From positions 1-64,000 of the forward strand of contig JAPPGE010000094.1 of assembly GCA_028821455.1 (NCBI GenBank): a stretch of DNA of 64,000 nucleotides. Direction: 5' to 3'. The DNA comes from a bacterium (GTDB lineage Bacteria; Pseudomonadota; Alphaproteobacteria; SP197). The notes under the pieces are model-generated. The model was not told the origin of the DNA. It did no database searches and was given only the letters and a program-made list of their open reading frames with translations. A program made the translations under genes and the position numbers. Below, piece by piece: positions 34,824 to 37,829 of the stretch; within the stretch, counting starts at the first letter, position 1; every line of letters begins with the position of its first letter.

Positions 34824-34988
34824 CTATTCTTCGGGGACGGGAGGCTCGATGCCGAACCAGCCGGCAATGTCGACGCCAAGCAGCAGCAGGACGATGAGCA
34901 GCCCCATGACGAATGTTCCCGCCAGGAGGGCGCGTTCGGTTCTGACGAGGCCGTCTTCTTCGCGAACCAGATCAACCAGCATACGCAT
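34824..34988 (-). CDS. small membrane protein, possibly Flp-pilin-like
   Basis: A 54-residue protein. After a charged N-terminus (LVREEDGLVRTER) it has one hydrophobic segment (about residues 23-42) and a short acidic tail. The layout charged stretch, Glu, then hydrophobic helix recalls Flp/type IVb pilins, but there is no clear prepilin cleavage glycine and no pilus gene nearby. The start at 34988 is chosen because GGGGAG lies five to ten bases before it; further upstream ATGs overlap that site. It may be transcribed with argC, which starts 45 bases downstream. Confidence 0.5.
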   Translation of the reverse strand: MRMLVDLVREEDGLVRTERALLAGTFVMGLLIVLLLLGVDIAGWFGIEPPVPEE

Positions 34989-35055
34989 GATACGGCTCCC
35001 CATCACCGACCGAAGTCCTCACGAAACGCGCCCATGATACTCGCGCCCGCACCGA

Positions 35056-35967
35056 TCACAACCGGTGGATGGCATCATCGGCCTCTCGTGCCGCCTCGAT
35101 CAACCAGTCGCGAAAGGCGCTGACGTTCGGTTTCCGCGCACTGCCCCTGGTATAGACGAGCCAGTAGGACAGGTCCTCGTCGGTCAGATCGCCAAAGGGC
35201 ATGACGAGTCGGCCGTAGTCGACATCGGACTGCACGACGATCCGGCTGCCGAGGGCCACGCCGAGACCCGCGGCCGCAGCCTCGAGCGCAAGGTCACTGT
35301 TTTCGAATGTCATTCCTCCCGCGCTGTCGACACCCTCGATGTGAAGTGCGGCAAGCCAGTAGCGCCAGTCCTCGTCATCCTGTTCGTGAAGAAGCGTGTG
35401 ATGGCGCAGATCGGCCGGCGCCGCCAGTGGCCGCTCGCCGGAGAGGAGATCGGGACTGCACACCGCAACATAGCGGTCCTCGAAGAGCTTTACCGCGTCG
35501 AGACCCGGCCAGGACCCGGTGCCGTAGCGAATGCCGCAATCGATGTCCTCGCGGAAGAAATCGACCATGCGATCCGTGGTCACCATGCGCACCTCGACAT
35601 CGGGGTGAAGCCGGTGAAACTCCCGCAGCCGGGGAATGAACCACCTGACGGCGAAGGTCGCCAGCATGGTGACGGACAGCGGGCCATGGGTGTCCTGACT
35701 GATGATGAGGTTCGTGCCGTCGGCAATCATGTCGAAGGCCTGACGCAGGAACGGAAGGTACATGCCGCCCGTGTCCGTGAGTTCAAGGCCACGTCCATGG
35801 CGCTCGAAGAGACGTGTTTCCAGACGATCCTCGAGCTTCCTCACCTGGTGACTGATGGCGGCCTGGGTCACGTTGAGCTCCTCTGCCGCGCGGGTGAAGG
35901 AGAGGTGACGGGCGGCAGCCTCGAAAGCCCTCAGGGCGTTGAGCGGCGGCAGGCGGCGTGATGACAT
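35056..35967 (-). CDS. LysR-family regulator, GcvA type
   Basis: A 303-residue LysR regulator. The helix-turn-helix is at about residues 9-50 (LNALRAFEAAARHLSFTRAA, then VTQAAISHQVRKLE), followed by the effector-binding domain with VRWFIPRLREFHR and the conserved GVALGS. The sequence is of GcvA style. The start at 35967 (MSSRRLPPL) matches family length. It is divergent from a 40-residue ORF at 36087, and a decayed second copy of its first 63 codons lies at 36240-36428, so this promoter region has been duplicated. Confidence 0.9.
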   Translation of the reverse strand: MSSRRLPPLNALRAFEAAARHLSFTRAAEELNVTQAAISHQVRKLEDRLETRLFERHGRGLELTDTGGMYLPFLRQAFDMIADGTNLIISQDTHGPLSVTMLATFAVRWFIPRLREFHRLHPDVEVRMVTTDRMVDFFREDIDCGIRYGTGSWPGLDAVKLFEDRYVAVCSPDLLSGERPLAAPADLRHHTLLHEQDDEDWRYWLAALHIEGVDSAGGMTFENSDLALEAAAAGLGVALGSRIVVQSDVDYGRLVMPFGDLTDEDLSYWLVYTRGSARKPNVSAFRDWLIEAAREADDAIHRL

Positions 35968-36039
35968 ATGTGTTTCCCTCATGCCTGGGGCGATCAATCG
36001 TCGCTGGTCATGTGCCTTCGGCAAACCTCAGGCTGGAAG

Positions 36040-36061
36040 CCGGAACAGGGCATGGTTCCGG
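36040..36061. promoter_or_regulatory. inverted repeat in the LysR/small-ORF divergent promoter
   Basis: Arms CCGGAAC (36040-36046) and GTTCCGG (36055-36061) are perfect complements around the 8-base centre AGGGCATG. The same element recurs 460 bases away, and the distance to the small-ORF start is nearly the same in each copy (25 and 26 bases). I infer an operator or an mRNA hairpin for the small gene. Confidence 0.5.
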
Positions 36062-36086
36062 AACGTTGGTACCAGGGAGAATTGCC

Positions 36087-36209
36087 ATGCTCTTCAAGAG
36101 AAGCGTTCGTGACGAGAACCGCCGTGACGCGAACAGGACCCGGCGTCCGGCTCTCCCGCCGTTCGCCAGCCGGATGAACAGGCTCAAACTGCTCATTCCG
36201 CCGTGGTGA
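36087..36209 (+). CDS. 40-residue small protein, copy A
   Basis: A 40-codon frame follows CAGGGAGAATTGCC, a good ribosome binding site. The product is basic, starting MLFKRSV and ending in KLLIPPW. It shares length, start context and about half of its residues with copy B at 36546 (common core RRD..RTRR..P..ASR.N.LK.LIP). Because the two copies differ in DNA but keep frame and pattern, translation is likely. It is transcribed away from the intact LysR gene, which may control it. No known family recognised. Confidence 0.55.
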   Translation: MLFKRSVRDENRRDANRTRRPALPPFASRMNRLKLLIPPW

Positions 36210-36239
36210 CGGCAAGGCGGGACAATCCTCCGAAATCAT

Positions 36240-36428
36240 GCCGCCGGTGTTCCGTGAGCTGCAGACCACGGGACACCGGCGGTCGACATGACGTGTGCCC
36301 GGACGCTCCTCGGGTTTCTTCGTCTGACGACTGATGAGGCCACGGGTCGCGCGCGTGACGAAGAGCTGGCGGCCGGCAGCATCGGAGGCCCTCCAGGCGT
36401 TGAGCGGCGGGGGACGGCGCGATGACAT
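36240..36428 (-). pseudogene. decayed second copy of the LysR N-terminus
   Basis: From ATG 36428 the frame reads MSSRRPPPLNAWRASDAAG and continues to NTGGM, aligning with the first 69 residues of the intact LysR protein but with a six-codon in-frame loss inside the recognition helix (VTQAAISHQ is absent). Downstream of this the protein no longer matches. The upstream leader (MRETH, then the ATG) is duplicated too. It cannot bind DNA as a LysR and is a remnant of a local duplication. Confidence 0.65.
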
Positions 36429-36501
36429 ATGAGTTTCTCTCATGCCTGGCGTGAATAATCGTCGCTGGTCAAATGCCACGGAAAACCCTAGATTACAACC
36501 A

Positions 36502-36519
36502 GGAACAGAGCATGGTTCC
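36502..36519. promoter_or_regulatory. second copy of the inverted repeat upstream of small ORF B
   Basis: GGAAC (36502-36506) and GTTCC (36515-36519) flank the centre AGAGCATG, matching the copy at 36040-36061 in core, spacing and distance to the start codon. The outer two pairs of the first copy have been lost, leaving a shorter palindrome. Confidence 0.5.
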
Positions 36520-36545
36520 GCAACATCTTGACAGGGAGAATTGCC

Positions 36546-36668
36546 ATGCTTTTCAGAAAATTCACTCATGATGTCTATCGCCGTGACACGATCCGTACCC
36601 GGCGTGACGCTTCCCCATCACTCGCCAGCCGGATCAATGCGCTCAAGCCGCTCATTCCGCTGTCGTGA
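36546..36668 (+). CDS. 40-residue small protein, copy B
   Basis: This frame has the same length and start signal as copy A (CAGGGAGAATTGCC before ATG). It begins MLFRKFTHD and ends KPLIPLS, with the shared core RRD..RTRR..P..ASR.N.LK.LIP. It sits divergent from the decayed LysR copy. Stops are at equivalent places in both copies, so no drift in frame has occurred since the duplication. It could be a short regulatory peptide or membrane-associated basic protein; function unknown. Confidence 0.55.
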   Translation: MLFRKFTHDVYRRDTIRTRRDASPSLASRINALKPLIPLS

Positions 36669-36688
36669 TGGACGGACGGGAACATCAC

Positions 36689-36747
36689 CCGGGCCGGAGC
36701 GGTGTGACTGAAGCACGAAAAGTGCCTGTCACGCCGCTTCCGCCCGG
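36689..36747 (+). other. 59-base hairpin upstream of the methyltransferase gene
   Basis: Arms of 20 bases (36689-36708 and 36728-36747) pair with two mismatches and one G-U pair, and an inner stem GCAC/GTGC (36713-36716, 36722-36725) closes a GAAAA loop. It lies 21 bases after the stop of small ORF B and 66 bases before the methyltransferase start. No T-run follows, so it is not a standard intrinsic terminator. It may be an RNA processing or stability element. Confidence 0.5.
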
Positions 36748-36812
36748 ACAGTCCTTGCGCGGCAGCGAGGCCGTGCGACACAATTGCAGGGGCCAGCGGG
36801 CATACCGGAACC

Positions 36813-37829
36813 TTGGACTTCCACGCAGTGCCTCACGCCGAACGATTCAGGCGCCTCCTCCAGACAAGGGGCGTGCTCGTCGCTGACGGCGCCACCGGCA
36901 CCAATCTCTTCCGTGCCGGACTCGAGTCGGGAAGCTCCCCGGAACTCCTGAACATCGACAATCCTGAAGGCGTCATGGCCAATCACGAGGCCATGGTCAT
37001 GGCCGGCGCCGATATCATCCTCACAAACAGCTTTGGCGGAACCGCCAACCGGCTGAAACTGCACGGTGCCGCAGACCGGGTCCGCGAACTCAACCGGGAG
37101 GCCGCAAGGCTGGCCCGGGCGGTGGCCGACCGGTCAGAGCGCAATATCCTGGTCGCGGGGTCCATGGGTCCGACCGGCGACATCATGCAGCCCGTCGGCG
37201 ACCTCGCACACGATGATGCGGTCCTGGCCTTCCGGGAACAGGCCCTGGGACTCGCCTCGGGCGGTGCCGACGTGATCTGGATCGAGACGATGTCCTCCAT
37301 CGAGGAAACCGAGGCCGCCATCGAGGGCGCCGCCCCGGCGGGTCTGCCCCTGGTGTGCACCATGACGTTCGACACAAACGGGCGGACGATGATGGGTGTC
37401 ACGCCCGAACATGCAGCGGATCACTTTGCGACAGCGCCACTGGCGGGGTTCGGCGCCAATTGCGGCAACGGCTTTGGCGAACTCGTTGCCGCGGTCGCCG
37501 CCATGAACACCTCGCAGACCTGCCGCCATCCCCTTGTCGCCAAGGCCAACTGCGGCATTCCGGAATACGTGGATGGCAGGATCCGTTACTCCGGGACTCC
37601 GGAAATCATGGGAGTCTACGCCCGCCTGGCACGGGACGCCGGCGCCTCGATCATCGGTGGTTGCTGCGGTTCGGCGCCTGAGCACATTACCGCCATCCGT
37701 GAATCTCTCCAAGACTACAGCCCGGGGCCGGCGCCGGAACTTGCGGACATCGAGGCGATCCTCGGTCTTTCCCGTGTGGCGCCGGCACATGGCAGGAAGC
37801 GAGTCCGCCGGTCCCGCAGGCACCGGTGA
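36813..37829 (+). CDS. betaine/homocysteine S-methyltransferase family protein
   Basis: A 338-residue zinc-dependent methyltransferase that moves a methyl group to homocysteine. The barrel start VADGATGTNLF is typical. The zinc cysteines are Cys in GANCGNG (about 213) and the pair in GGCCGSAPEH (about 290-291). Glycine betaine or a related methylated amine or sulfur compound is the likely donor. The start is the first ATG, about 60 bases after a large hairpin. No riboswitch could be recognised upstream. It is probably monocistronic. Confidence 0.9.
   Translation: MDFHAVPHAERFRRLLQTRGVLVADGATGTNLFRAGLESGSSPELLNIDNPEGVMANHEAMVMAGADIILTNSFGGTANRLKLHGAADRVRELNREAARLARAVADRSERNILVAGSMGPTGDIMQPVGDLAHDDAVLAFREQALGLASGGADVIWIETMSSIEETEAAIEGAAPAGLPLVCTMTFDTNGRTMMGVTPEHAADHFATAPLAGFGANCGNGFGELVAAVAAMNTSQTCRHPLVAKANCGIPEYVDGRIRYSGTPEIMGVYARLARDAGASIIGGCCGSAPEHITAIRESLQDYSPGPAPELADIEAILGLSRVAPAHGRKRVRRSRRHR

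Follow-up and report, generated by a model that had tools for sequence, protein, structure and literature searches.

A small gene duplicated beside a GcvA-type regulator

The window, a 64,000 nt stretch of contig JAPPGE010000094.1 from an alphaproteobacterium, includes a tandem duplication of approximately 460 nt at 35.9–36.7 kb. The duplicated unit consists of the 5′ end of a minus-strand lysR gene, a divergent promoter region and a plus-strand ORF (Table 1). Two pairs of repeats, 35887–36016/36348–36477 and 36073–36232/36532–36691, share 82% and 73% nucleotide identity, respectively, at a spacing of 459–461 nt, which bears out the proposal in an earlier note on this DNA that a LysR promoter region with a 40-residue protein family is duplicated here. 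The two ORFs, A and B, are each exactly 40 codons long, and 22 of the 40 residues are identical, in line with the estimate that about half differ. The common start context and the palindrome at matching distance that had been pointed out were also confirmed: both ORFs begin CAGGGAGAATTGCC-ATG, and the GGAACAGnGCATGGTTCC palindrome lies 27 nt upstream of the ATG of ORF A and 26 nt upstream of that of ORF B.

The NF008352 match to the LysR protein spans residues 3–298 and is thus full length, and LysR orthologues within the family are 70–92% identical. Judged by its sequence, the lysR piece between A and B, here called lysR′, is a truncated, decaying remnant. It retains only approximately the first 70 codons and has an 18 nt in-frame gap together with many further changes, so the earlier description of a LysR copy that had lost its recognition helix in frame was misleading. 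Within this lysR-derived sequence, 3′ of copy A, is a near-perfect 42 nt palindrome with 21 bp arms that is absent from G004 and G007 and arose only in the window's genome. Downstream of lysR, a 60 aa minus-strand ORF (34824–35006) includes one hydrophobic segment and looks like a Flp pilin by eye, with no Pfam match; true Flp pilins are found near the locus in G009.

Table 1. Features of the duplicated region in the window
Feature	Position	Strand	Details
GcvA-type LysR regulator	35056–35967	-	303 aa, intact; NCBIfam NF008352 (GcvA), 371.5 bits, cut-off 288
GcvA-like inverted repeat, copy 1, putative operator	35968–35982		ATGTG-TTTCC-CTCAT; 7/10 to ATTAG-n5-CTAAT; adjoins LysR start codon
TCGCTGG motif, copy 1	36001–36007	+	window version of TCGTTTG
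5′ leader palindrome, copy 1	36042–36059		GGAACAGGGCATGGTTCC; kept in all four duplicated-clade genomes
Small protein, copy A	36087–36209	+	40 aa, pI 12, 22% Arg
lysR′ fragment, decayed	about 36237–36428	-	approximately codons 1–70; initial part forms a strong hairpin (36241–36282)
GcvA-like inverted repeat, copy 2	36429–36443		ATGAG-TTTCT-CTCAT; 8/10
TCGCTGG motif, copy 2	36462–36468	+
5′ leader palindrome, copy 2	36502–36519		GGAACAGAGCATGGTTCC
Small protein, copy B	36546–36668	+	40 aa, pI 11.6, 18% Arg
3′ hairpin after copy B	36688–36748		no U-run; z = -4.8; also in G004, G007 and G001

An undescribed family of arginine-rich proteins

When the window's own genome was queried in a tblastn-style search, only copies A and B matched with a good E-value. 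A profile search returned the family from 14 of 16 examined genomes of the family and order, at one locus each, and did not find it in the sampled genomes outside the order. G000, G004 and G007 have two copies each, and G001 has a single copy. Wherever the small ORF is present (14 genomes), it is divergent from the LysR orthologue and lies 120–155 nt from the LysR start, and the ORFs of the relatives (40–45 codons) can be aligned with both window copies. A search for the family beside GcvA-type LysR genes, suggested in the earlier note, thus located it next to the same LysR throughout, and the frame, whose absence from related genomes would have counted against the idea, is conserved in them. 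ORFs A and B are thus not chance frames, as they have homologues in each of these 14 genomes. A search for spread of the family on plasmids gave no match.

The proteins are 40–45 aa in length and basic, with a pI of 10.4–12 and 12–22% arginine, and no Pfam or NCBIfam model matches them. A structure model (AlphaFold2) predicts two helices with low confidence (pLDDT 62). In being very small, arginine-rich and basic with two tentatively predicted helices, they resemble the DUF1127 or YjiS-like proteins (PF06568), but this is a resemblance only. Four members of the family matched no Pfam family up to E = 1, and a profile–profile comparison with DUF1127 (hhalign) gave a probability of 0.1 on a shallow alignment. 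Membership of DUF1127 was rejected, as Pfam, NCBIfam and hhalign all failed to indicate it. Nor was there an NCBIfam profile match to the RSP_7527 family (NF046098) up to E = 1. On this sequence evidence, the family is an undescribed one, and the window carries a real gene of it in two diverged copies.

Selection on the coding frame

In codon models of the single-copy members of the family, which are 43 aa, ω was 0.32 with a core set of six sequences and 0.41 with eight sequences, and the log-likelihood exceeded that for ω = 1 by 11.6 and 9.5, respectively (2ΔlnL 19–23). Purifying selection thus acts on the single-copy members at the protein level and, from this signal, they are very probably translated. 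For the duplicated clade ω was 0.73 (0.54 for A alone and 0.83 for B alone), which is not significantly below 1, and hence by these models constraint is relaxed there and weaker than on the single-copy gene.

The earlier note had looked to the ratio of synonymous to nonsynonymous change between the two copies as a check, but for A against B in the window ω was 0.79, again not significantly below 1, and the pair alone is no proof of selection. Selection is indicated by the single-copy relatives and by the rate of nonsynonymous change in the A and B orthologues, which is 0.33–0.55 of the rate of synonymous change in the adjacent lysR (P = 0.0001–0.01, where sites are taken as independent and the compared pairs share branches). 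All six copies in the three genomes with both ORFs have kept the ATG, frame, length and stop while the flanking sequence gained indels. In a neutral simulation start, frame and stop were all retained in 0.2% of runs; the absence of internal stops alone, seen in 19% of runs, is the weak part of this result. The suggestion that equal length pointed to translated, selected proteins is supported in part: these do look like conserved, translated small proteins, but common descent suffices to account for their equal length.

History of the duplication

The orthologues from G000, G004 and G007 group by copy (A or B), and the duplication is thus older than the split of these genomes. In G001 a single B-type copy lies directly beside lysR. 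Copy A has apparently been lost there, in an arrangement that is as expected for a deletion between repeats. The lysR′ fragment is 60 codons long and intact in G004, degraded in the window and reduced to approximately 25 codons in G007. Between lysR′ of G004 (L047:5300–5479) and lysR of the same genome dS is 0.19 and dN 0.015. These two sequences are far more alike than A and B are, suggesting that local gene conversion has taken place between them.

Candidate operators and transcript architecture

In Escherichia coli, GcvA acts via ATTAG-n5-CTAAT repeats both to repress its own gene and to activate the divergent gcvB gene, and the inverted repeat overlaps the promoter of the regulator gene (PMC5002191). 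The window resembles this system in having a GcvA-type LysR and a predicted divergent short transcript, and its candidate repeats match the E. coli repeat at 7/10 and 8/10 positions (Table 1). The copy 1 repeat is by itself within chance expectation. Exact matches (10/10) are present in L013 and L018, and 9/10 matches in L011, L016, L017, L019 and L021. However, gcvB is a non-coding RNA, whereas the family described here has a conserved coding frame.

A second motif is TCGTTTG. Of 28 related loci (the LysR upstream regions L018–L023 and L096–L117), 21 have an exact match to it 40–70 nt upstream of LysR, compared with 1.3% of random control stretches of the same loci. It was chosen after part of the regions had been viewed and the first set is not independent, but the loci added later, L096–L117, show it too. 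Of the 14 regions of the small-protein family, 12 have TCGTTTG, TCGTTGG or TCGCTGG at the corresponding position, against a mean of 1.4 after shuffling, and the window motif has drifted from TCGTTTG to TCGCTGG. A consensus scan for a σ70-like promoter found none. From the layout and motifs, we infer that the divergent small mRNA is probably controlled by LysR.

Ten relatives have an invariant strong Shine–Dalgarno sequence, TAAGGAGAAGT, followed by the ORF, a stem–loop with the element GCGGCGGCGG and an intrinsic terminator in which compensatory changes are seen. The GCGGCGGCGG element, 3′ of the small ORF in the stem–loop of the 3′ UTR, is present in 9 of these 10 (L009, L010 and L011–L017). 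The window copies have neither GCGGCGGCGG nor a U-run terminator; strong 3′ hairpins are present. The 3′ UTRs fold at lower energies than shuffled sequences do, with z from -2.5 to -4.8 overall and from -2.5 to -4.5 in the relatives. Rfam gave no gathering-level match and only three sub-threshold matches, none to GcvB.

The sRNA UdsC derives from the 3′ UTR of the RSP_7527 mRNA (PMC9779115), and the CcsR1–4 sRNAs lie downstream of the DUF1127 gene ccaF1 (PMC12501420). Given these precedents and the structured 3′ UTRs, it is plausible that the small-gene transcript also yields an sRNA from its 3′ UTR.

Occupants of the divergent position

The 28 related GcvA-type LysR loci belong to other genomes of the Alphaproteobacteria, and 22 of them have a divergent gene for a DUF1127 protein. 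An RSP_7527-like protein (NF046098) takes its place in three, L103, L107 and L114, two of them above the NCBIfam cut-off and one below it. After these, the new family looks like the third tenant of a regulatory slot of a kind that is already known. The DUF1127 loci share with the window the LysR subfamily, the divergent layout, the TCGTTTG motif, the GcvA-like repeat and a short arginine-rich product, but the product in the window belongs to a different family. RSP_7527, with UdsC, likewise has a short mRNA and a structured 3′ UTR in the same slot, but sequence comparison revealed no similarity to the window family. The RSP_7527 promoter in Rhodobacter sphaeroides was reported to depend on RpoHII (PMC8625941).

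Activation of DUF1127 small-protein genes is known for VtlR, a LysR-type regulator other than GcvA, in Brucella and Agrobacterium (PMC12595884, PMC7486931). The VtlR/LsrB regulon (BAB1_0914, BAB2_0512, BAB2_0574, Atu1667 and the AbcR sRNAs) is similar in that very small arginine-rich proteins are activated. However, VtlR has its own box, GCAT-N3-TG-N3-T, vtlR is described beside the abcR sRNAs and not beside DUF1127 genes, and the product family is another. A literature search of incomplete coverage found no paper joining DUF1127 with GcvA, and the general pairing of a GcvA-type LysR with a divergent DUF1127 gene, mostly with TCGTTTG, may itself be unreported.

Several relatives (L081, L082, L083 and L084) have a second divergent LysR–DUF1127 module 1–4 kb from the module with the new family. 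Origin of the latter by duplication of the adjacent LysR–DUF1127 module was considered for G012, G015, G010 and G002 and rejected, as those LysRs and the orthologues do not cluster together in the LysR tree, which has weak support near its root.

A proposed mechanism and its alternatives

On balance, we favour a model in which a GcvA-type LysR activates a divergent gene for a small arginine-rich protein, the tenant being different in this order and duplicated in the window. LysR would bind the intergenic region, limit its own expression and activate a short transcript that encodes the 40–45-residue basic protein. DUF1127 proteins, which are rich in arginine, bind to either RNA or proteins (PMC12501420), and by analogy the small protein might act as a regulator by binding RNA or a partner protein, a mode of action that we put forward tentatively. 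Tandem duplication of lysR′, the promoter and the small gene would have produced two LysR-responsive copies in the window's clade. Both persist as 40-codon frames in three genomes, under weaker constraint than the single-copy gene, while lysR′ decays.

The transcript could instead act mainly as RNA, either like gcvB or as the source of a 3′-UTR sRNA of the UdsC or CcsR1–4 type (PMC9779115, PMC12501420), with the ORF secondary or with both functions coexisting. The structured 3′ UTRs of the relatives, with the GCGGCGGCGG stem–loop, a covarying intrinsic terminator and low fold energies, and the two precedents are what such a role would lead one to expect. We nevertheless consider it unlikely, as the coding signal in single-copy members is strong, the window copies are without GCGGCGGCGG and the U-run terminator, and there is no Rfam family at gathering level. 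The position of copy B just upstream of a homocysteine methyltransferase gene on the same strand (36813–37829), repeated in G001, G007 and G008, brings to mind a leader peptide or attenuator for that gene, and attenuation by a uORF is known for a DUF1127 gene (PMC12218461). This role was rejected as very unlikely because the downstream gene varies among genomes (in G009, for example, it encodes a Flp pilin); moreover, the transcript of relatives stops at an intrinsic terminator, and no methionine-specific run of regulatory codons was seen.

It is also improbable, if less so, that A and B are simply a decaying duplicate that no longer has a function. The ω of the duplicated clade, which does not differ from 1, the apparent loss of copy A from G001 and the decay of lysR′ fit with this. 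Against it are the survival of six complete frames in three genomes, for which the neutral expectation is 0.002, amid flanks that gain indels, and nonsynonymous change well under the synonymous rate of lysR. Activation of a small protein gene by LysR is the reading that we retain.

Implications

These results add a family of unannotated small proteins whose translation is supported statistically and which is tied to a type of regulator otherwise neighboured by genes for DUF1127, a large family whose function is still uncertain. A broader generalization, which at present seems rather less likely than the model for this locus, is that a GcvA-type LysR conserved throughout the Alphaproteobacteria drives, together with its operator, one of several interchangeable dual-function mRNAs, each encoding a small basic protein and yielding a regulatory RNA from its 3′ UTR, such that the slot is kept while the product (DUF1127, RSP_7527-like or the new family) is swapped. 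If the slot is common to unrelated small basic proteins, their comparison could reveal the property that the LysR regulon needs, be it charge, RNA binding or the 3′ UTR. Copies A and B in the window would provide an example from nature of how a very small regulated gene diverges once it has been duplicated.
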